Shown here: piece by piece, positions 1 through 30,393 of the stretch | Numbering within the stretch: the first letter of the stretch is position 1 | Layout of the letters: each line of letters starts with the position of its first letter | Assembly (NCBI GenBank): GCA_023259135.1 | Contig: JAHFQX010000023.1 | Location: 1-44,845 of the forward strand | Direction: 5' to 3' | DNA: 44,845 bases | Source of the DNA: Betaproteobacteria bacterium | GTDB taxonomy: Bacteria > Pseudomonadota > Gammaproteobacteria > Burkholderiales > JAHFQX01 | The notes under the pieces: generated by a model | The model's input: the letters and a program-made list of their open reading frames with translations, nothing else | What the model was told of the DNA's origin: nothing | The model's database searches: none | Program-made: the position numbers and the translations under genes

Positions 1-189
1 AACGTTGGGCAGCCAAAGGGCCACCCGGTCTCCGCGGCCAATCCCCAATTGCTCCAACCCCGTGGCCAGGCGGCGGCTTTCATTCGCGAGTTGTCCGTAG
101 GAGACCGGACGTTCCCGGTCGATGAAGGCGGGCGCTGCCGGCTGCCGGGCCGCTAGCCCGTCCAATAGGGCCGATAAGGTGCTGGGCAT
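1..189 (-). CDS. AMP-forming acyl-CoA synthetase, N-terminal part (runs off the left edge)
   Basis: The 63 visible codons start MPSTLSALLDGLAARQP and continue through PVSYGQLANESRRLATGL to GRGDRVALWLPNV. This is the N-terminal pattern of AMP-binding (ANL) ligases: a short helix, a 'Y-x-x-L' segment, then 'G-x-x-x-G-D-x-V-a-x-x-x-P-N'. Such enzymes activate carboxylic acids to acyl-CoA through an acyl-AMP. The gene lies 55 nt downstream of a substrate-binding protein on the same strand and is probably the next gene of that operon. The catalytic motifs lie outside the window, so the substrate cannot be inferred. Confidence 0.8.
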   Translation of the reverse strand, partial: MPSTLSALLDGLAARQPAAPAFIDRERPVSYGQLANESRRLATGLEQLGIGRGDRVALWLPNV

Positions 190-244
190 GGTGATTCTCC
201 TCGGTACGCTAGCGCAGTAACTCCGCCCCGCTGCCGGAGGGAAA

Positions 245-1465
245 TTACTGCTTCTTAACCAACGGACACGTGCTCTTGGACAACGGAATGAAGGCCTCAT
301 TGCCGGGAATGGTCCGCCGCACATGGTAGTAGTCCCAGGGGTACTTGGACTCCTCGGGCTTCTTCACCTGCATCAGATACATGTCATGCACCATGCGCCC
401 GTCTTCCCGGAGCTTGCCGTTCTTGGCGAACATGTCGTTCACCGGCATGGCCTTCATTTTGGCCATCACCGCCCCGGTCTCGTCGGTGCCGGCAGCCTGC
501 ACCGCCTTCAGGTAATGGGTGATGGAGGAATAGATTCCGGCCTGGATCATATTCGGCATGCGTTTCATCTTCTCGAAGAAACGCCTCGACCAGGCCCGGG
601 TCTCGTTATTCATATCCCAATAAAATGCCTCGGTAACATACATCCCCTGGGTTGCCTTGAGGCCCAAGGTATGGATGTCGGAGATGGGGACCACTAGCCC
701 GGCGAAGCGCTGCTTGGGGGTGATGCCGAACTCGCTGGCCTGCTTGATGGCGTTGATGGCATCGGGGCCGGCGGTGGCGAGCCCGATCACTTTCGCCCCG
801 GAAGCCTGGGCCTGCAGCAGAGATGACGAGAAATCGGTGTTGGGGAAAGGGTTCCGGACCGAACCCAGCACCTTGCCCCCGGACCCCTTCACCACGTCGG
901 CGGCATCCTTCTCCAGGGAATGTCCGAAAGTATAGTCGGCCGTAATGAAGAACCAGCTATCTCCTCCTTCTTTCACCACAGCCCGGGCAGTTCCCGCCGC
1001 CATCGAATAAGTATCGTAAGTCCAGTGGGCAGTGATGGGAGTGCAGTCCTCGTTAGTGATGCGGGTGGCGCCGGGCCCCGACAACAACACGATCTTGTTC
1101 TTCTCTTTGGCGATCTTTATCGCCGCCAGGGAGGTAGCCGAAGCCGCAACCTCCCCCAAAATGTCCACCTTGCCCTTGTCGAACCATTCCCGAGCTTTGC
1201 TGGAAGCGATATCCGCCTTGTTCTGGTGATCGATGGACAGCAATTCGATGGGTTTGCCCAGCACCTTGCCGCCGAAATCGTTGATCGCCATCTGAGCCGC
1301 ATGGACGGAATAAAGCCCGCCGACATCGCCATAGGGTCCCAGATCGTTCATTACCCCGATGCGGACCACCCCGTCGGAAATCTTCTCCCCAGCCGCAGCC
1401 GCAGGACCCGTGAAAGCCGCCAGAACAGCGGCGCAGACGCCCAGCATGATCGGTACGCTTTTCAT
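245..1465 (-). CDS. Type I periplasmic substrate-binding protein (LivJ-like), copy 1
   Basis: A 406-aa ABC-transporter solute-binding protein of the branched-chain-amino-acid/aromatic-acid type (Peripla_BP_6). The start is the ATG after AAGGAGG at 1465. Residues 1-24 form a signal peptide ending in a PAAAAGEK segment, so the protein should be periplasmic. The first strand reads RIGVMNDLGPYGDVGG. Compared with copy 2 it lacks one residue of the usual DLSGPYA loop and carries several other changes at probable ligand-facing positions. The last 110 or so residues are identical to copy 2. No permease or ATPase gene is visible, so these would have to lie beyond the left edge or elsewhere. The ligand is unknown. 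Confidence 0.93.
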   Translation of the reverse strand: MKSVPIMLGVCAAVLAAFTGPAAAAGEKISDGVVRIGVMNDLGPYGDVGGLYSVHAAQMAINDFGGKVLGKPIELLSIDHQNKADIASSKAREWFDKGKVDILGEVAASATSLAAIKIAKEKNKIVLLSGPGATRITNEDCTPITAHWTYDTYSMAAGTARAVVKEGGDSWFFITADYTFGHSLEKDAADVVKGSGGKVLGSVRNPFPNTDFSSSLLQAQASGAKVIGLATAGPDAINAIKQASEFGITPKQRFAGLVVPISDIHTLGLKATQGMYVTEAFYWDMNNETRAWSRRFFEKMKRMPNMIQAGIYSSITHYLKAVQAAGTDETGAVMAKMKAMPVNDMFAKNGKLREDGRMVHDMYLMQVKKPEESKYPWDYYHVRRTIPGNEAFIPLSKSTCPLVKKQ

Positions 1466-1519
1466 TGCTCGCCTCCTTAAATCGTTTAATAAAAACTGCA
1501 ACCGTTCCCCGATGGGGGA

Positions 1520-1537
1520 TTACACCTGAATTTCCTT
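1520..1537 (-). pseudogene. 18-bp fossil of the CoA-transferase beta gene 3' end
   Basis: On the minus strand this reads AAGGAAATTCAGGTGTAA, encoding KEIQV-stop. It equals the last codons of the CoA-transferase gene at 2872-2889. It lies at the matching distance upstream of copy 1 and marks how far the tandem duplication extended into the upstream gene. Confidence 0.85.
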
Positions 1538-1560
1538 GAATGGCCCGGGAGCGGATCGGG

Positions 1561-2889
1561 CAGTAACTCCGCCCCGCTGCCGGAGGGAAATTACTGCTTC
1601 TTAACCAACGGACACGTGCTCTTGGACAACGGAATGAAGGCCTCATTGCCGGGAATGGTCCGCCGCACATGGTAGTAGTCCCAGGGGTACTTGGACTCCT
1701 CGGGCTTCTTCACCTGCATCAGATACATGTCATGCACCATGCGCCCGTCTTCCCGGAGCTTGCCGTTCTTGGCGAACATGTCGTTCACCGGCATGGCCTT
1801 CATTTTGGCCATCACCGCCCCGGTCTCGTCGGTGCCGGCAGCCTGCACCGCCTTCAGGTAATGGGTGATGGAGGAATAGATTCCGGCCTGGACCATATTC
1901 GGCATGCGTTTCATCTTGTCGAAGAAACGCCTCGACCAGGCGCGGGTCTCGTTATTCATATCCCAATAAAACGCCTCGGTGAGATACATGCCCTGGGTCG
2001 CCTTGAGGCCCATGGCATGGACGTCATTGACAAAAAACAGCAATGCCGCCAAGGATTGCTTGGGGGTAATGCCGAACTCGCTGGCCTGCTTGATGGCGTT
2101 GATGGCATCGGTCCCGCCGTTGGCGAGCCCGATCACTTTCGCCCCGGAAGCCTGGGCCTGCAGCAAAAACGACGAGAAGTCGGCGCTGGGGAAAGGGTGG
2201 CGGATCGAACCCAGCACCTTCCCCCCGGCTCCCTTCACCACGTCGGCGGCATCCTTCTCCAGGGAATGTCCGAAAGTATAGTCGGCCGTAATGAAGAACC
2301 AGCTATCCCCTCCTTCTTTCACCACAGCCCGGGCAGTTCCCGTCGCCAGGGAATAAGTATCGTAGGTCCAGTGGGCGGTGATGGGGGTGCAGTCCTCATT
2401 GGTGATGCGAGTAGGGGCAGGCCCGGACAGCAGCACGATCTTGTTCTTCTCTTTGGCGATCTTTATCGCCGCCAGGGCGGTGGCGCCAGCGGCGACTTCC
2501 CCCAAAATGTCCACCTTGTTCTTGTCGAACCATTCCCGAGCCTTGTTGGAAGCGATATCCGCCTTGTTCTGGTGATCGATGGACAGCAATTCGATGGGTT
2601 TGCCCAATACCTTGCCACCGAAATCGTCGATGGCCATTTGAGCGGCATAAACCGAGTGCGGTCCGCCGACATAGGCATAGGGTCCGGACAGATCATTCAT
2701 TACTCCAATGCGGACTACCCCGTCGGAAATCTTCTCCCCGACCGCAGCTGCAGGATCAGCGAAAGCCGCCAGAACAGCGGCGCAGACGCCCAGCATGATG
2801 GGTACGCTTTTGTGTTTCATTGTTCTCCTCCTTGACGTTTGATAAAAACCGCAACCGCTCCTCCTGAGGGGTTACACCTGAATTTCCTT
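1561..2889. repeat. Tandem duplication, copy 2 (substrate-binding protein unit)
   Basis: This is the partner of 215-1537 and is probably the parental arrangement, because its right end is the intact 3' end of the CoA-transferase gene rather than a detached fragment. It is slightly longer than copy 1, with three extra codons inside the gene. Confidence 0.92.
1591..2820 (-). CDS. Type I periplasmic substrate-binding protein (LivJ-like), copy 2
   Basis: This 409-aa paralogue of the neighbouring binding protein starts at 2820 after GGAGGAGAACA. A signal peptide (MKHKSVPIMLGVCAAVLAAF, then ADPAAA) precedes the mature protein. The ligand loop is canonical (NDLSGPYAYVGG), as are the GLANGGTDAIN and AALLFFVNDVHAMG segments that differ from copy 1. 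The role is to capture a small carboxylate or amino acid in the periplasm for an ABC importer. It lies 51 nt downstream of the CoA-transferase beta gene, which suggests co-transcription of uptake with CoA activation. The specificity is unknown. Confidence 0.93.
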   Translation of the reverse strand: MKHKSVPIMLGVCAAVLAAFADPAAAVGEKISDGVVRIGVMNDLSGPYAYVGGPHSVYAAQMAIDDFGGKVLGKPIELLSIDHQNKADIASNKAREWFDKNKVDILGEVAAGATALAAIKIAKEKNKIVLLSGPAPTRITNEDCTPITAHWTYDTYSLATGTARAVVKEGGDSWFFITADYTFGHSLEKDAADVVKGAGGKVLGSIRHPFPSADFSSFLLQAQASGAKVIGLANGGTDAINAIKQASEFGITPKQSLAALLFFVNDVHAMGLKATQGMYLTEAFYWDMNNETRAWSRRFFDKMKRMPNMVQAGIYSSITHYLKAVQAAGTDETGAVMAKMKAMPVNDMFAKNGKLREDGRMVHDMYLMQVKKPEESKYPWDYYHVRRTIPGNEAFIPLSKSTCPLVKKQ

Positions 2890-3543
2890 AAGATTCGAAT
2901 CCAGCACCAGCCGAGGCTCGGTCAGGGCCTGCACTTCTTCCGCAGTCCAACCCGGGGCAACCTCCTTCAATAACAATCCATCGGCACCCACTTCGATCAC
3001 CGCCAGATCCGAGACGATCAGATCGACGCAGGCTTTCGCGGTCAGAGGATATTTGCAATGTCTGACGATTTTCGGCTTGCCCTGCTTGGTGACATGCTCC
3101 ATGGCGATGATCACCCGCTTGGCTCCCACCGCCAAATCCATGCTGCCGCCGATGCCGCCTGATTCCGGAACGCCGAAAGTCCAATTGGCCAGATCTCCCG
3201 CTCCGGAAACCTCCACCGCTCCGAGGATGGTGGCATCCAAGTGACGCCCCCGAATCATGTCGAAGGACTGGCCCATGTCGCAGAACGCCATGCCCGGCCG
3301 AGGCCGGAAAAAGCGCAACCCCGCATCCACATAATCGAAATCGGCTCTTCCCCATTCCGACTCCGGGAGCAGCGGCCCATAGCCCAACACCCCATGCTCG
3401 GCATGGAACGCCACCTGTATCCCGGCGGGCAAATGGGACGCGCACAGATTGGGAATACCCACTCCGAGATTGACGTAGTCTCCGTCTTTCAATTCCAAGG
3501 CGGCCCGTGCCGCCACTTGCTCGGGGAGCAGACGCGGCTTCAT
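2872..3543 (-). CDS. 3-oxoacid CoA-transferase, subunit B (AtoA/ScoB type)
   Basis: A 223-aa beta subunit of a family I CoA-transferase, which moves CoA between an acyl-CoA and a free acid through a glutamyl-CoA intermediate. The expected 'NLGVGIPN' segment is present near residues 25-32. The catalytic glutamate is E49 in HAEHGVLG, where the family usually has S-E-N-G-x-x-G. GGIGGSMDLAVGAKRVI and a C-terminal LTEPRLVL are also family-like. The start ATG overlaps the subunit A stop by 4 nt (ATGA), so the two subunits are translationally coupled in a 1:1 complex. The substrate could be acetoacetate or another 3-oxoacid. Confidence 0.9.
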   Translation of the reverse strand: MKPRLLPEQVAARAALELKDGDYVNLGVGIPNLCASHLPAGIQVAFHAEHGVLGYGPLLPESEWGRADFDYVDAGLRFFRPRPGMAFCDMGQSFDMIRGRHLDATILGAVEVSGAGDLANWTFGVPESGGIGGSMDLAVGAKRVIIAMEHVTKQGKPKIVRHCKYPLTAKACVDLIVSDLAVIEVGADGLLLKEVAPGWTAEEVQALTEPRLVLDSNLKEIQV

Positions 3544-4307
3544 GATTTTTTCCCCTGGGCTTGAAAGCGGGCCAGCAACTCTTTCCGGTTCCGGGCACTC
3601 CCCAAGCCCGCTTCGGGCACCCGCACCAACCGATCCACGTAGATCCCCGGAGTGATAATCGCGTCGGGGTCCAACTCCCCCACCTCGACAATCTCGTCCA
3701 CTTCCGCAACCACCGTCCGGCAGGCGGTCGCCATCACCGGATTGCAGCCCCGGCCTCCTCCCCGATACACCAAATTTCCCAGCTTGTCCGCCCGGTGCGC
3801 CCGGATGAAGCCGAAATCGGCGGTCAGCGGTTTCTCCAGCAAATATTCCCGCCCGTCATCCAGCAACCGCTTCTCCTTGCCCTGTTCCACCAGGGTCCCG
3901 ATTCCCACCGGAGAATAAAAACCGCCGATACCGGCGCCTCCCGCCCGGATGCGTTCCGCCAGGATCCCGTGGCTCACCAACTCCAATGCGGTCTTACCCT
4001 CCCGAATCCGCCGCTCCATGGGAGATTCCATCCCCAGATAGGACATTCCGGGCCAAGCGGTGATGAGCTTCTTCACTTGGTCCGCCATCATGAAGGGAGT
4101 CACTACATCCCATAGCACGGTCTTGCCGACGAAGGCCGGCATGACGTTGTGAGTGATCAGCGTCAGATCCTGGGTCCCCTTGTTTCTCAGGGCCTGGAGC
4201 AGATTTTGCGGGGTTCCCGAAACACCCCAACAGAACACCATGAGGGAAGCGCCGTCGGGAAAGTCCTCGATCGCCTCTTCAAAGGTCGTGCAGATGCGGG
4301 TTTTCAT
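3540..4307 (-). CDS. 3-oxoacid CoA-transferase, subunit A (AtoD/ScoA type)
   Basis: A 255-aa alpha subunit that forms the heteromeric enzyme with the next gene. The N-terminus (residues 8-30) has the family fold FEEAIEDFPDGASLMVFCWG. The usual G-G-F-G-x-x-G-x-P loop is here GVSGTPQNLLQAL, a mild deviation. GFYSPVGIGTLVEQGKEKR and the FGFIRAHRADKLGNLVYRG stretch are typical. The start is ATG at 4307, preceded by GGGAGAAAGGAA. The gene overlaps the fossil ligase tail upstream, which suggests it once followed an intact ligase gene directly. The substrate cannot be read from sequence. Confidence 0.88.
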   Translation of the reverse strand: MKTRICTTFEEAIEDFPDGASLMVFCWGVSGTPQNLLQALRNKGTQDLTLITHNVMPAFVGKTVLWDVVTPFMMADQVKKLITAWPGMSYLGMESPMERRIREGKTALELVSHGILAERIRAGGAGIGGFYSPVGIGTLVEQGKEKRLLDDGREYLLEKPLTADFGFIRAHRADKLGNLVYRGGGRGCNPVMATACRTVVAEVDEIVEVGELDPDAIITPGIYVDRLVRVPEAGLGSARNRKELLARFQAQGKKS

Positions 4308-4449: not shown

Positions 4450-6420
4450 TCAGCCCGCGGCGATTTTCTGCCGCAACTCGTTGACCGCTTCCGGATTCAC
4501 CAGGGCAGACAGGTCCCCGGGGCTATCCCCGCGGAACACCGCCCGCACCACCCGGCGCATGATCTTCATGTTGCGCGTCTTGGGCAACTCATTGACGAAT
4601 ACCACTTGCTTGGGCCGGTATGACGTTCCCATTCCGGCCACCACCGCCTTGGACAGGATGTCCTCCAGACTCTTGTCCGGCGCCACTCCCGGCATCGGCA
4701 CGCAAACGCAAACGATGGCCGACCCTTTGACCGGATCCGGAACCCCGATCACCGCCACTTCCGATAGCTTGGCGGTCTCCATCAAAAGCCCCTCGATCTC
4801 CGAGGGCCCGGTCCGCTTGCCGGAAACCTTGATGGTATCGTCGGAACGCCCCAGGATGTAATACAGTCCGTCCTCGTCCCGCATGGCGAAATCGCCATGC
4901 ACCCAAATGCCCGGAATGGTATTCCAGTAACTGTCCAAATATCGGGCATCGTCCTTCCACAGGCTCTTGGTCATGCCGATGGAAGCCTGCCTGAGCACCA
5001 GTTCCCCCACCTGACCGGCGGGCACGGGCTTGCCGCTATCGTCCACGATGTCCGCCCCCATGCCTAGGCCGGGGCCGGCAAAGGAGCTGGGCTTCATGGG
5101 ATGATGAGGAGTGCTGGTGAAAATGCAGCCCCCCACCTCCGTGCCTCCGGAAATGTTCATGATGGGAATCTTTTCCTTGCATACGTGCTTGAAGAACCAC
5201 AGCCACGGCGTCTCGGTCCACGCCTCCCCACCGGAGCAGGTGATGCGCAGCGACGACAAATCGTAGCGCTCCACTGCTTCGTCGCCGTAGCGCATCAGGC
5301 CCCGGATCAGGGTCGGCGCGACTCCCACATAGGTCACCTTATGATCCTGGATCAGCCTCCAGAACCGGCCGGTATCGGGGTAATCCGGGGTTCCTTCCAC
5401 CACCAGCAGGCTTCCGCCCATCATGCTGGGAACGCAGGCGCACATGGCCCCCACCATCCACCCCATGTCGCTCATGAAGAAGAATCGGTCGGTGGACTTA
5501 AAATCACAGCAAATGTGCATATCGCGGGTGACCATCGACCCCAGAAAGCTAACATGGGTCCACACGCAACCCTTGGGCTTGCCGGTGGTTCCAGAGGTGT
5601 ACAGCAAGATGGCCGGCGCCTCGGCATCCATTTCCTCGGTGGGAACGTCGTCGGGCTGCCCTGCCACCAAATCGCCCCACCAGTGGTCCCGTCCCGCTCG
5701 CATGGGAGTGTTCAGCTTGTCTCCCATGTGCCGCACCACGATTACTTGCTTCACGCTGGGAACCTCTCCCAGCGCCTCGTCCAGCACCGTTTTCATGTCT
5801 CCCGGGGCACCCCGCCGCCAGGTGCCGTCGGCGGTAATCACCACCTTGGCGCCGCCGTCGTTCAGGCGGGTCACGATGGGCTGGGGACCGAAACCGGAGA
5901 ACAGCGGCATCATGATGGCGCCGATTTTCTGGATGGCGAAAAAGGCGGCGAAAGTCTCCGGCAGATTAGGCATATAAACGGCGACCACGTCGCCTTTGCC
6001 TATACCCAGGAACTTGAGGGCCGCCGCCAACTTGCACACCTCGACATTAAACTCCCCATAGGTGAAGCGCCGCTGCTGCTTCGGATCCTCCCCTTCCCAG
6101 ACCAGGAATTCCTTGTTCCAGGTAGGAGTGCCTTGGTACTTGTCGATGCAGTTCAGCACCACATTGGTCGTTCCACCCACGCACCAACGCGCCCAGGGCA
6201 AGCCCCGGGAAACATCCAGGATTTGGTCATAGGGCTTGTAAAACCGCATGTCGCAGAACTTGAAGACGTGTTCCATCAACCAGCCCGGATCCTGGTCGCC
6301 TTTCTTCTGCAAGGACGCGAAATCCGGCAGGCCCACCCTCTTCAGGAACGCGGTGAGGTTGCTTTGCGCGATGATCTCGGGAGTCGGCTCCCAGTAGAAT
6401 TTCTTGTTGGCAGACGCCAT
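4450..6420 (-). CDS. Acetyl/acetoacetyl-CoA synthetase-like AMP-forming ligase
   Basis: A 656-aa ANL-family ligase with the long N-terminal region (ACAS_N type) of acetyl-, propionyl- and acetoacetyl-CoA synthetases. The A3 core LLYTSGTTGKPKG lies near residue 275, A5 reads NISGGTEVGGC, A7/A8 read WVHGDFAMRDEDGLYYILGR and DDTIKVSGKR, and the C-terminal A10 lysine is in LPKTRNMKIMRR. It forms acyl-AMP from an acid and ATP, then acyl-CoA. The start ATG has GGAGGG 8 nt upstream. It heads the left catabolic operon, followed by the CoA-transferase and binding proteins. The exact acyl substrate is open; the length and N-terminus argue for a short acyl chain. Confidence 0.88.
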   Translation of the reverse strand: MASANKKFYWEPTPEIIAQSNLTAFLKRVGLPDFASLQKKGDQDPGWLMEHVFKFCDMRFYKPYDQILDVSRGLPWARWCVGGTTNVVLNCIDKYQGTPTWNKEFLVWEGEDPKQQRRFTYGEFNVEVCKLAAALKFLGIGKGDVVAVYMPNLPETFAAFFAIQKIGAIMMPLFSGFGPQPIVTRLNDGGAKVVITADGTWRRGAPGDMKTVLDEALGEVPSVKQVIVVRHMGDKLNTPMRAGRDHWWGDLVAGQPDDVPTEEMDAEAPAILLYTSGTTGKPKGCVWTHVSFLGSMVTRDMHICCDFKSTDRFFFMSDMGWMVGAMCACVPSMMGGSLLVVEGTPDYPDTGRFWRLIQDHKVTYVGVAPTLIRGLMRYGDEAVERYDLSSLRITCSGGEAWTETPWLWFFKHVCKEKIPIMNISGGTEVGGCIFTSTPHHPMKPSSFAGPGLGMGADIVDDSGKPVPAGQVGELVLRQASIGMTKSLWKDDARYLDSYWNTIPGIWVHGDFAMRDEDGLYYILGRSDDTIKVSGKRTGPSEIEGLLMETAKLSEVAVIGVPDPVKGSAIVCVCVPMPGVAPDKSLEDILSKAVVAGMGTSYRPKQVVFVNELPKTRNMKIMRRVVRAVFRGDSPGDLSALVNPEAVNELRQKIAAG

Positions 6421-26430: not shown

Positions 26431-27588
26431 TCAAAGAGTCGCCTCGGTGCCGAGAATGTTGGTGATCTGGCTCGACAGTACCCCGCCGTTACCATGACAT
26501 AGCGCTACCTCGGCGTTTTTCACCTGCCGCTCGCCGCCTTCCCCCCGCAACTGCCGCACCCCTTCCACCAGGGTAAACATGCCGTACATCCCGGGGTGGA
26601 CGCAGGACAACCCGCCGCCGTTGGTGTTTACAGGTAGGCTACCCCCCGGCGCGATGGCGCCGCTGGCGACGAAAGAACCGCCTTCGCCTTTCTTGCAGAA
26701 GCCCAAGTCTTCCAGAAACAGGATGGTATTGATAGTGAAGGCATCGTACAGCTCCACTACATCCACGTCCGAGGGTTTCATTCCGGCCATCTGGAATGCC
26801 CGCTGGCCGGAGTCCTTGGCGGCGGTTTTGGTCAGGTCGGCCATGGCCATGATGTTCATGTGAGTGGTCGCGGCCGCCCCCCCTAACAGATAGACCGGCT
26901 GCTTGGGAAAATCCTTGGCCCGCTTGGCCGATACCATCACCAGCGCGGCGCCGCCGTCGGTCACCAGACAGCAGTCTCGTACCGTAAGGGGGCTGGACAC
27001 CATGCGGGAGTTCAGCACGTCTGCCACCGACAAGGGGCCCCGCATGAAGGCTTCGGGGTTCATGTTGGCCCATTGGCGGGCAGCCACGGCCACACTGGCC
27101 ATCTGTTCCCGAGTCGTGCCGTACAGGTGCATGTGGCGGGAAGCCGCCAGGGCATAGGAAGTCGCCGGGAAAATGGGGTTATAGGGAGCCTCGTAAGGAA
27201 AGGGACGCACCGAGGAAACCAGTTTTCCGGTATTGGAGCGTTGGTTGCTGCCATAAAAAATCAGCGCCGTATCGCACAAGCCCTCCTTGAGGGCCATGGC
27301 GGCCATCAGCGTGTAAGACAGAAATGTGGAGCCGCCGGTGCGGTTATTGTCGGTAAACTTGGGTTGGATCCCCATGATTTCCGCCATCAGCAGGCCGGAC
27401 AACGGGCTGCAATCCCCGGGCAGGGAGCCGAACACGGCATCCACATCCTGAGTGGTGAGCCCCGCCTCGGCCAACGCCTTATAACTGGCTTCAATGGCGA
27501 TATCCTCCGAAGTTCGGCCCGGCGCCTCTCCCAGGCCGGCCAAAGACGCCCCCACGATAGCGGCCGCGCCGCGAATACTGTTCGACAT
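26431..27588 (-). CDS. Thiolase-fold protein of the SCP-x/Ltp lipid-transfer type
   Basis: A 385-aa thiolase-superfamily protein. The fold is clear: NSIRGAAAIVG, TSEDIAIEASYKALAEAGL, VVELYDAFTINTILFLEDLG, and NTNGGGLSCVHPGMYGM with a conserved His. Where thiolases carry the nucleophilic Cys, the sequence is NRTGGSTF (S87-T88), and the second catalytic Cys region reads LCHGNGG. Such Cys-less members paired with DUF35 proteins include the steroid side-chain aldolases (Ltp2 type), so a retro-aldol or carrier role is as likely as thiolysis. AAGGAGG precedes the ATG, 12 nt after the DUF35 gene. Confidence 0.87.
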   Translation of the reverse strand: MSNSIRGAAAIVGASLAGLGEAPGRTSEDIAIEASYKALAEAGLTTQDVDAVFGSLPGDCSPLSGLLMAEIMGIQPKFTDNNRTGGSTFLSYTLMAAMALKEGLCDTALIFYGSNQRSNTGKLVSSVRPFPYEAPYNPIFPATSYALAASRHMHLYGTTREQMASVAVAARQWANMNPEAFMRGPLSVADVLNSRMVSSPLTVRDCCLVTDGGAALVMVSAKRAKDFPKQPVYLLGGAAATTHMNIMAMADLTKTAAKDSGQRAFQMAGMKPSDVDVVELYDAFTINTILFLEDLGFCKKGEGGSFVASGAIAPGGSLPVNTNGGGLSCVHPGMYGMFTLVEGVRQLRGEGGERQVKNAEVALCHGNGGVLSSQITNILGTEATL

Positions 27589-27600
27589 GACATTGCCTCC

Positions 27601-27993
27601 TTATGCAGGCTCGAAAACGACAAAGGGCGCCTTGCCGCTGCTATCGATCTTGGCCTTGACGGCCATGCCGATTTTCACGTCCGCGTTATCCACACCGTCC
27701 ACCCGGCCCATCATGCGGGCGCCTTCCGCCAAATCCACCAGCACCACGTTATACGGCCCGCCCTTTTCGGTTTGGCGGTTCACGATACTCACCGCGTGGA
27801 CGGTGCCCCGCCCGGAAGGCTGCACCCACTCCAGCTTGATGCCGCCGCAACCGGTGCAGGCCAGGCGGGGGTAAAATACCTGCTTGCCGCAGTCGCCGCA
27901 GCGTTGAATACGTAACTCGCCTTTTCCCAAGTATTCCTGATAAACCCTGTCCGGGCCCGGGCCGCTGAACACCGGGGCTTGCGTCGCGCTCAT
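27601..27993 (-). CDS. DUF35 OB-fold, zinc-ribbon acyl-CoA-associated protein
   Basis: A 130-aa protein with a rubredoxin-like zinc ribbon (C32-x2-C35, C46-x2-C49) followed by an OB-fold (about residues 60-125, GRGTVHAVSIVNRQ to KIGMAVKAKI). DUF35 proteins bind acyl-CoA and form complexes with SCP-x-type thiolases and aldolases. Its place directly before the thiolase-fold gene, with a 12-nt gap, strongly suggests that the two products form one enzyme. GGAGGG precedes the start. Confidence 0.92.
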   Translation of the reverse strand: MSATQAPVFSGPGPDRVYQEYLGKGELRIQRCGDCGKQVFYPRLACTGCGGIKLEWVQPSGRGTVHAVSIVNRQTEKGGPYNVVLVDLAEGARMMGRVDGVDNADVKIGMAVKAKIDSSGKAPFVVFEPA

Positions 27994-28041
27994 GGAATCT
28001 TCCCTCCTACAGTGTAATGGTTGATGACGGTAAAAAACGGG

Positions 28042-29175
28042 TCAGCCCGGCAACTCTAGAATCGCCTTGGCGAGAATATTGCGCTGGATTTCGTTGGTGC
28101 CCCCGTAAATGGAGGCGGGACGGGAAGCGAAATAATGGTTGGCGGGATGCACTTGGGCCCCGTCAGCCAGCACCAGCATCTCATCCAGTACAGCGGCTTC
28201 CCCCGTGATCTCGATCATGAGGTCGGTGACCCGCTGATAGGTCTCGGTAATCCAAATCTTCAGCAAGGATACCTCCGGGCCCAACTCTTCGCCCCGCCGC
28301 AACACCTCGGCGAACCGCACGAAGGTCGCATCCAAGTCGGCCACATCCAGCCGCAAGGCATCGTACTGGGCGCGAAACTCCGGGTTCTCCATCAAGCCCC
28401 GCTCCTTGGCGAGCTTGCCGAGAAGCTGCAGCGGATATTTGGCGACCCGCGGGCTGCCGATGGTGATGCGCTCGGAACCCAGCAGCGACTTCGCCATGGT
28501 CCAACCCTGATTGAGTTGGCCGACAATATTCTCTTTCGGGATTTTGACGTTGTCGAAGAAGACTTCGCAAAACTCCGAACTGCCGGTGAGATTCTTGATG
28601 CGCCGTATCGTGATGCCGGGGGCCTTCATATCTCCCAGCAGAAAACTGATGCCCTCCTGTTTCTTCGCTTCCTTGTCGGTCCGCACCAGCATGAAGATCA
28701 TATCCGCCTCATGGGCATAGGAAGTCCAGATCTTCTGGCCATTGACGATGAAGTGATCGCCTTGCAACACCGCGCTGGTGCGCAATCCGGCAAGATCAGA
28801 GCCGGCCCCGGGCTCTGAATAGCCTTGGCACCAACGGATCTCTCCCGACAGAATGCGGGGCAGGTAGTACTGTTTCTGCGCCTCGGTGCCATAACGGATC
28901 AACAACGGCCCTAGCATGGTGACCGCCATGTTGGGGGCGATGTTGATGCCATGAGCGTCGAATGCTTGCTGAAAGCTAATCTGCTGATAGGCCGTCAGCC
29001 CCATGCCCCCGTATTCCTTGGGCCAATTAGGTGCCGACCAGCCTTTCTCGTAAAGCTTGCGTTGCCAAGTCTCGGTCTGCCGCAAACTCAAACGATGCGG
29101 GGGAAACCGCCATTCCTCCGGAAAGTTTTCCTTGATCCACTGCCGCACTTCAAGTCTAAACGCCTGCTCATCCAT
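28042..29175 (-). CDS. Acyl-CoA dehydrogenase, subunit 2
   Basis: A 377-aa FAD-dependent acyl-CoA dehydrogenase. Residues 45-60 read GWSAPNWPKEYGGMGL, then CQGYSEPGAGSDLAGL (FAD/substrate motif, about 112-127), VNGQKIWTSYAHEADM and the C-terminal ASIYGGTNEIQRNILAK that binds FAD across the dimer. The usual catalytic Glu of short-chain enzymes (Y-E-G-T) is Gly here, so the base must lie elsewhere, as in long-chain and alpha2beta2 enzymes. It pairs with the next dehydrogenase gene. The start ATG has a G-run ribosome site. Confidence 0.93.
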   Translation of the reverse strand: MDEQAFRLEVRQWIKENFPEEWRFPPHRLSLRQTETWQRKLYEKGWSAPNWPKEYGGMGLTAYQQISFQQAFDAHGINIAPNMAVTMLGPLLIRYGTEAQKQYYLPRILSGEIRWCQGYSEPGAGSDLAGLRTSAVLQGDHFIVNGQKIWTSYAHEADMIFMLVRTDKEAKKQEGISFLLGDMKAPGITIRRIKNLTGSSEFCEVFFDNVKIPKENIVGQLNQGWTMAKSLLGSERITIGSPRVAKYPLQLLGKLAKERGLMENPEFRAQYDALRLDVADLDATFVRFAEVLRRGEELGPEVSLLKIWITETYQRVTDLMIEITGEAAVLDEMLVLADGAQVHPANHYFASRPASIYGGTNEIQRNILAKAILELPG

Positions 29176-29244
29176 TCCGTCATCCCCCCGGATTCACCGT
29201 CACTTGCAGCCATCCAGACCCAAGCCGATGGCTATCCATGTCTA

Positions 29245-30393
29245 TCAGACCGCCTCGGCAACCAACTCGCCATACCGACGACGATGGTGGGCCGCCGAGC
29301 CCAGCCAGGTAGCGAGCACCATGGATTTTTTAAGGAACAGGCCGATATCGCACTCGTCGGTATACCCGATCCCGCCATGCAGTTGCACACAACCCTTGGC
29401 CACCTTGAGAGCCGCGTCGGAACAACGGGCCTTGGCCTGGCTGGCGGCAACGGCCCGCCGCGCTGGGTCTGGGCTGGCATCGAAAACGGCGGCGCCGTGG
29501 GCCAGCACCGAGCGGGATAACTCAACCAAAATAAACAAATCCACCGCCCGATGTTGCAAGGCCTGGAAACTGCCTATGGGGCGGCCGAATTGTTCCCGCT
29601 GCCGGATATAAGCCACGCTGATTTCCAGGGCGCGGGACATCACTCCCAGCAGTTCGGCGCTCGCCGCCAGCCGTCCCTCGTCCAACACCCGGTCCAAAAC
29701 GGCGCGGCCCATGCCCGGAGAAGCCACGCAACGGCTTGCCGAGACCCGGACTCCGGCAAGCTTCAAGGTTCCGAAGAACCCTCCATCCACCCGCGGATGG
29801 GTTTCAATAACCGTCCCGGCGCTCCCCTTGTCCACCAGAAAGAGAGCGGTTCCCGAGGGCGTGCGAGCAGCCACCACAAAAGCATCCGCGCCTTCGGCGG
29901 CGGGGATAAAGTATTTGCTCCCCGTCAACGCAAATCCACCGCTTTGGGCAACGGCGGTGACACTCGACGATTCGGTTTGTTGCGAGGATTCGGCTTCCTG
30001 CCAAGCCAGGGCCGGCTTCCAGTCCCCCGCCATCAGGCGCGGCAAGCATTCGGCTTTCAAGCCCTCGTTATCGCCGTGAAGAATGGCCCCCCCCGCCATC
30101 AGCGCCGCCGAAATAAGCGGCTCCGGAGCCAGCGCCCGGCCGCCCTGCTCCAACAGCAACGACGCTTCCGCAAAACCCAAGCCCATACCGTCATATTTCT
30201 CGGGCAGCCAAAATCCCAGCCAACCCAGATCGGCCATGGCTTTCCAGACGCTCTGGTCATACCCCGGCGCAATACCACGCCGCTCGCGGATTCTCTTGTA
30301 GTTCCCCGCATCAGAAAAGAAAGAGGCGGCGCTTTCCTGGATCATCCGCTGCTGATCGCTGAAGCGATCAATGCGGGTTTTGAGATCAATCAT
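29245..30393 (-). CDS. Acyl-CoA dehydrogenase, subunit 1
   Basis: This 382-aa acyl-CoA-dehydrogenase-fold protein is first in the operon. The N-terminal helical domain (residues 1-110) includes GWLGFWLPEKYDGMGLGFAE. The middle beta domain and LDEGRLAASAELLGVMSRAL are recognisable. The FAD-contacting S-E-P-x-x-G-S and Y-G-G-T-x-E-I motifs seen in the neighbour are absent; the corresponding segments read WQEAESSQQTESS and IGYTDECDIGLFLK. Such an incomplete partner next to a complete one is typical of heteromeric (alpha2beta2) dehydrogenases acting on bulky acyl-CoAs. Confidence 0.9.
   Translation of the reverse strand: MIDLKTRIDRFSDQQRMIQESAASFFSDAGNYKRIRERRGIAPGYDQSVWKAMADLGWLGFWLPEKYDGMGLGFAEASLLLEQGGRALAPEPLISAALMAGGAILHGDNEGLKAECLPRLMAGDWKPALAWQEAESSQQTESSSVTAVAQSGGFALTGSKYFIPAAEGADAFVVAARTPSGTALFLVDKGSAGTVIETHPRVDGGFFGTLKLAGVRVSASRCVASPGMGRAVLDRVLDEGRLAASAELLGVMSRALEISVAYIRQREQFGRPIGSFQALQHRAVDLFILVELSRSVLAHGAAVFDASPDPARRAVAASQAKARCSDAALKVAKGCVQLHGGIGYTDECDIGLFLKKSMVLATWLGSAAHHRRRYGELVAEAV

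Follow-up and report, generated by a model that had tools for sequence, protein, structure and literature searches.

Two genes for LIV-type solute-binding proteins (SBPs), which we call A and B, stand in tandem on the minus strand near the start of the DNA analyzed here; they are identical over their 3' quarter and divergent over the remainder, with amino acid replacements concentrated at the predicted ligand cleft. The DNA, called the window below, comprises positions 1 to 44,845 of contig JAHFQX010000023.1 from a Betaproteobacteria bacterium of the order Burkholderiales (GenBank assembly GCA_023259135.1), and A and B lie there downstream of coenzyme A (CoA)-transferase genes (2872-4307) and a ligase gene (4450-6420). 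We consider the following account, taken as a whole, likely. A LIV-type periplasmic binding protein gene was duplicated in tandem, as a unit reaching from the tail of a CoA-transferase gene to just beyond the stop codon, and the copies A and B would then have diverged. Later gene conversion, presumably by homologous repair between the copies, would have overwritten the 3' flank and roughly 100 terminal codons of one copy, in whichever direction, and left the divergence in the first three quarters, concentrated at the cleft loops. A and B would take different acids, which neighboring ligases and CoA-transferases would activate, possibly by way of a LivH-type transporter encoded on another contig (C15) of the genome. 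The parts of the two genes referred to below are the following.

214-546: identical tract, A copy (3' quarter and 3' flank), by sequence identity to the B copy
245-1465, minus strand: gene A, LIV-type SBP of 406 amino acids (Pfam Peripla_BP_6, E 1.8e-103; predicted local distance difference test score, pLDDT, of the model 89.3); its start resembles a signal peptide, and the Ser45 codon of B is absent
659-715, minus strand: patch in which A diverges from B (61% nucleotide identity), corresponding to residues 254-272 of the B numbering
755-781, minus strand: loop LATAGPDAI in A, with Asn234 (40/40 homologs) replaced by Thr
1325-1345, minus strand: first cleft loop in A, lacking one codon (Ser45), from the alignment and the models
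1520-1537, minus strand: 18-nucleotide relic, upstream of A, derived from the 3' end of the CoA-transferase B gene; it marks the right edge of the tandem duplication
1560-1892: identical tract, B copy, by sequence identity to the A copy
1591-2820, minus strand: gene B, LIV-type SBP of 409 amino acids (Pfam Peripla_BP_6, E 1.3e-111; model pLDDT 89.6)
2005-2061, minus strand: divergent patch in B, residues 254-272
2101-2127, minus strand: loop LANGGTDAI in B
2671-2694, minus strand: first cleft loop in B, residues 43-50
2872-2889, minus strand: last 18 nucleotides of the CoA-transferase subunit B gene, the source of the relic

The first-pass annotation had claimed that positions 215-546 and 1561-1892 are identical, 3' flank included, and this holds: the exact repeat is 332 bp long, has one extra base at its left (214/1560), and spans about the last 100 codons, the stop codon and 31 bp of 3' flank (214-244 on the side of A). 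The proteins are 90% identical, with differences in 43 of 409 alignment columns, three of them gaps, and 38 replacements fall within residues 31-310. The annotation's figure of about 40 amino acid differences outside the identical end is thus borne out, while the part that it described as two thirds of the gene is about three quarters; the particular differences that it quoted, namely the absence of the Ser45 codon from A, GLANGGTDA/GLATAGPDA and LLFFVNDVHAM/LVVPISDIHTL, are all present. Homology between A and B ends at 214/1560 on the left and at 2889 on the right, where the final 18 nucleotides of the CoA-transferase B gene (2872-2889) are repeated at 1520-1537, and the duplicated unit is therefore about 1.35 kb. 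A tandem duplication of this size underlies the pair. Within the DNA available per locus, a second copy was found in none of 109 homolog loci (80 named loci, of which 58 exceed 12.5 kb, and 29 order-level loci), in a search that had sequences of the genome itself as a positive control; a tandem copy could be missed in the 29 order-level loci because these are only 3.0-4.2 kb long.

Silent sites were counted by the Nei-Gojobori method on codon alignments of the paralogs. Between A and B, silent divergence amounts to 0.34 over alignment columns 1-300 and to 0 beyond them; with a split at column 306, there are 58.8 silent differences in 216.5 sites and then 0 in 65.5 (the last 103 codon columns; P = 2e-8). 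Since none of 20,000 shuffles equaled the longest stretch of identical silent codons, chance is excluded, and since the 31 bp of non-coding flank are identical as well, protein constraint is not the cause of the tract. The fall is abrupt and extends into the non-coding flank 214-244, as in a conversion tract, and the 3' silent-site step is a well-supported signature of gene conversion.

A similar step occurs in a second pair of this genome, and the conversion of the 3' part that the annotation had proposed is strengthened by it. Three further full paralogs are carried by the genome: contig C15 has sbp1 and sbp2, contig C16 has c16, and a 3'-only fragment lies beside sbp2. Between sbp2 and c16, which lie on different contigs, silent differences drop from 104.2 in 205.5 sites to 4.0 in 77.7 (P = 3e-14) at a breakpoint unlike that of A and B; this split, at column 285, was chosen after viewing the divergence profile, and the 3' tract retains four silent and three replacement differences. 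The comparison pair sbp1/sbp2 has no silent fall (P = 0.08). We also tested 31 paralog pairs of 10 other genomes of the same order (derived from 34 matches in 12 genomes, 30 with loci; one match was dropped for a stop codon, and two genomes were single-copy), and none of the 31 has a 3' silent step. Because silent divergence in the 5' part exceeds that of A and B in 30 of the 31, which are thus older pairs, the power of this test is limited. Conversion of the 3' part as a general habit of the family, which we had considered, is unsupported by these pairs.

Both proteins pass the Peripla_BP_6 cut-off of 31.7 bits (A 347.3, B 374), and the model of B has the two-lobe periplasmic-binding fold (template-modeling score against PDB 3n0w 0.88/0.96, root-mean-square deviation 1.6). 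The nearest solved structures found by Foldseek are PDB 3i09 (56% identity) and 3n0w (40%). Scores against the urea-binding protein UrtA are 50.9-59.2 bits, below the NCBIfam cut-offs of 492.75 and 494.8. In this fold, the ligand cleft is lined by the loops into which the beta-strands run at their C-terminal ends. For each of ten beta-strands in the model of B, we took the six residues past its C-terminal end as the cleft loop, which gives 60 residues within 31-310; this model was built with 41 other sequences in the alignment, and that of A with 29 others.

Of the A/B replacements, 15 of 38 (0.395) fall in cleft loops, which make up 0.21 of the sites. Among 5772 pairs of 108 homologs (six pairs with fewer than 10 differences were excluded), the mean fraction is 0.179 and the maximum 0.292, and no pair reaches the A/B value. 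With loop lengths of 5, 7 or 8 residues, A/B is still above the maximum of 780 homolog pairs, and when residues 254-272 are left out, 10 of 27 replacements are in cleft loops, which is equaled by none of 5771 pairs. None of the 31 paralog pairs of other genomes reaches A/B either (mean 0.177, maximum 0.265). The clustering at likely ligand contacts noticed in the first-pass annotation therefore stands against both controls. The pairs sbp2/c16 (0.310), sbp1/sbp2 (0.357) and sbp1/c16 (0.388), which share members and hence are not independent, are also beyond the homolog-pair distribution, and loop-focused divergence is a property of this genome's closer paralogs, absent from those sampled elsewhere. 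Among the five paralogs, departure from the family trend is confined to A and B at residues 43-60 (rank 3 for A, 2 for B) and 100-116 (rank 2 for A, 1 for B).

The most divergent segment is the patch at residues 254-272, where the DNA identity of A and B is 61.4%, compared with 88.4% over residues 31-310, so that here the two are no nearer to each other than unrelated members of the family; in 55 other pairs with an overall identity of 86% or more, this patch window never falls below 0.70. In patch DNA, A has 70 sequences among the 111 others that match it at least as closely as B does, and B has 59 that match it at least as closely as A does; for the protein, these numbers are 106 and 109. 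Silent differences are also raised, at 8 in 14 sites against 47 in 183 elsewhere (P = 0.025). Since silent and replacement sites are both highly divergent, the simplest reading is that the patch would be an old or imported segment rather than a product of point mutations since the duplication; intense local change is a possible source. For a donor, 20-residue windows of A and B were compared with the three other full paralogs and 108 of the 109 homolog loci, one being excluded by a filter that required a match spanning more than 340 residues with no stop and no N. One candidate was sbp2, since from alignment column 200 on A is nearer to it than B is (25 versus 10 matches, the most A-lopsided count among the 32 sequences listed), and this is insufficient to name it. 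Relative to the family trend, A and B depart equally in the patch (residual -0.088 each, ranks 11 and 12 of 113), which speaks against loop acceleration in one copy only, and sbp1, sbp2 and c16 depart more (ranks 3-5). These ranks neither prove nor exclude import.

Both copies are probably functional, as judged from their sequences. The frames are intact and each is preceded by an AGGAGG stretch, so that A gives no impression of being in decay. Of the residues common among homologs, A has lost Ser45 (Ser in 35 of 40, with Thr in four others) and carries Thr at position 234, where all 40 have Asn; departures from conserved columns number eight in A and eight in B (0-18 in homologs). A short helix at residues 48-51 is present in the model of B and missing from that of A.

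The genes next to A and B, listed here, suggest uptake of acids that would become CoA esters.

1-189, minus strand: 5' start of an acyl-CoA ligase gene, beginning at 189, downstream of A, and truncated by the contig end
2872-3543, minus strand: 3-oxoacid CoA-transferase subunit B (TIGR02428, 249.5 bits against a cut-off of 243.55)
3540-4307, minus strand: 3-oxoacid CoA-transferase subunit A (TIGR02429, 216.3 bits against a cut-off of 128.5)
4450-6420, minus strand: acetyl-CoA-synthetase-like ligase (Pfam AMP-binding; the best NCBIfam model is below its cut-off, 560.4 against 657)

CoA-ester genes occur near all three loci of the genome: CoA-transferase and ligases beside A and B, a ligase and MmgE/PrpD on C15, and acetyl-CoA hydrolase/transferase and methylmalonyl-CoA mutase on C16. 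At the last locus (L090:530-5012), the lone paralog c16 adjoins the acetyl-CoA hydrolase/transferase and the methylmalonyl-CoA mutase-like gene. Farther along the contig of A and B, one strand (window 26431-30393) carries two genes for acyl-CoA dehydrogenases and one whose product has thiolase C-terminal domains; they represent further acyl-CoA metabolism. Scans of the window for promoters (0 promoter-like sites, 1.2 expected) and terminators (6 terminator-like sites, 4.4 expected) were uninformative.

Homologs often stand in LivG-LivF-SBP-LivH-LivM clusters: of the 58 loci longer than 12.5 kb, 36 have at least one Liv component at 40% identity or more. On C15, the Liv genes are similar to those flanking many homologs, and there (L089:6925-14862) the usual order, found for example at homolog locus L009, is enlarged to LivG-LivF-sbp1-ligase-sbp2-fragment-LivH-LivM. 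The fragment (L089:8765-9067, minus strand of C15) encodes about 100 C-terminal residues, 75-76% identical to B, and is positioned between the sbp2 stop codon and the LivH gene; it is probably what is left of an earlier binding-protein gene that occupied the usual place. LivH was the only subunit searched across the genome, which has one close LivH, on C15, the other six LivH-like matches being at most 33% identical to it. A and B probably bind different carboxylic acids, and A, B and c16 may feed the C15 LivH-type transporter with different ones; it is also possible that transporter genes lie past the contig end or are missing from the assembly, which is 99% complete.

Several points weigh against the account of duplication, conversion and pocket divergence. 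The assembly is fragmented (86 contigs), and the perfect identity of the tract may be overstated, since merging by the assembler could hide a few differences. A search by genus and family gave no near relative that could supply an ortholog pair as a check on conversion. The pocket loops were set from strand ends of a model and not from a ligand-bound structure, and A or B compared with sbp1 or sbp2 is less loop-focused (0.245-0.268, reached by 7 to 51 of the 5772 homolog pairs, in the upper tail). The donor search gave no clear patch donor among the 111 other sequences, the best window match, at 251-270, being 0.77 to A and 0.73 to B. Any of seven CoA genes tried is present in 15 of the 58 loci longer than 12.5 kb, and CoA-transferase in four of the 58. 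Because CoA genes are no general neighbor of the family, the acid-uptake reading draws on this genome, and for the uncommonness of such neighbors we gave the account slightly less weight. The ratio of replacement to silent rates (dN/dS) stands at 0.255 in the cleft loops, against 0.168 in the rest of residues 31-310, and the ratio of replacement to silent differences (N:S) in the cleft is not significantly different from the rest (P = 0.28).

These last values bear on a rival account by positive selection alone, in which recent and initially equal duplicates gained point mutations in the pocket that were selected in one or both. The clustering of replacements beyond the controls, the loss of Ser45 and Asn234 from A, and an N:S in the patch that differs from the rest (P = 0.049) speak for it. 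The dN/dS of the A/B pair is near 0.2, however, well under 1, patch silent changes are raised too, and silent divergence of 0.34 in the 5' part against 0 in the 3' part means parts of differing age, and we regard this account as quite improbable. Diversifying selection at the binding site, which the first-pass annotation had suggested, is thus not borne out: with dN/dS well below 1 and no significant cleft excess of N:S, positive selection is undemonstrated. Silent differences in the cleft compared with the rest give P = 0.08, and dN/dS in the three clusters that the annotation singled out is 0.23, 1.14 (residues 228-240, with one silent change only) and 0.40. The clusters look like old or imported segments left unerased by conversion, and selection shielding pocket differences from overwriting would raise silent and replacement changes alike in the loops, which is the direction seen. 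Relaxed constraint, with A decaying and its pocket changes neutral, would fit the loss of the two conserved residues, but it is at odds with the equal number of conserved-column departures in A and B, the intact frame and AGGAGG before the start, the similar model confidence and the pair dN/dS, and we hold it very improbable.

An assembly artefact, in which 3' ends that truly differ were merged into one consensus, is a further rival: near-identical repeats can be merged by assemblers, and a contig end inside an exact repeat is how breaks of a k-mer graph often look. The fragmentation fits, as does the left end of the window: the truncated ligase start has 14 differences from the C15 ligase in the first 69 bases of the gene and is then identical over 120 bases (1-120) up to the contig end, a mosaic that may be just an assembly-graph break within a real repeat. 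Merging needs near-identical paths, however, and the 5' parts of A and B stayed separate; moreover, the sbp2/c16 tract is spread over two contigs and retains four silent and three replacement differences, so that it is no merged consensus. We judge such an artefact unlikely. A reading without conversion, by strong purifying selection on the C-terminal part, has in its favor that all five paralogs are conserved above the family trend at residues 311-409 (ranks 102-111 of 113). Selection on protein can yield neither identical silent sites nor an identical non-coding flank, and silent sites already refute this reading unless the tract is an artefact; it is barely credible. A more ambitious scheme would let all five binding proteins and the 3' fragment serve one transporter, with recurrent conversion keeping the C-terminal part of close pairs uniform and divergent cleft-loop segments held or exchanged, a different acid for each; this we find rather doubtful. 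The preferred account remains that of one duplication, divergence and 3' conversion, with cleft differences left in place.

A and B are ordinary members of a large family, with the fold of 3i09 and 3n0w over their whole length, and the process proposed is a known one, not a new kind of system. Named homologs are often in LivGF-SBP-LivHM clusters, whereas A and B form a tandem next to CoA-transferase and ligase genes, and the stretch read contains no transporter gene. Conversion between duplicates has long been known in bacteria (PMC5485169, PMC6053082). For the tuf genes of Salmonella, PMC5485169 describes tracts bounded by the gene ends and a processivity of about 0.998 per base, which by our own arithmetic would imply about 500 bases in one direction, near the tract sizes here. 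There, conversion is described as keeping repeated genes almost identical (PMC5485169), while A and B are equal in their 3' part only and differ in the pocket. PMC6053082 looked at ongoing concerted evolution across the full gene length, and neither "transporter" nor "binding protein" occurs in its text. Another parallel concerns copepod GOT1 paralogs, in which islands of divergence persist against conversion and are proposed to indicate selection for new function (PMC3728101); that is an animal gene, and here the islands are at cleft loops of bacterial binding proteins.

Judged by search listings, we found no report in the open-licence literature of partial conversion beside a divergent pocket in binding proteins, and its repetition in this genome is the noteworthy point. 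Partial conversion that leaves a functional site untouched amounts to an experiment of nature on where a transporter protein is free to vary, and with a 3' step in two pairs of one genome, the divergent loops make a ready list of residues for ligand choice. For binding proteins of R. palustris, ligand screening by thermal shift has been carried out (PMC3223731). In E. coli, LivJ and LivK are two paralogous binding proteins of differing specificity that serve one transporter. The proposed arrangement of A and B would resemble it in having paralogous binding proteins of different specificity on one transporter, and differs from it in having five paralogs, two pairs of which have homogenized 3' ends. 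If A and B do bind different acids, this locus would show a bacterium widening its diet without an extra transporter.

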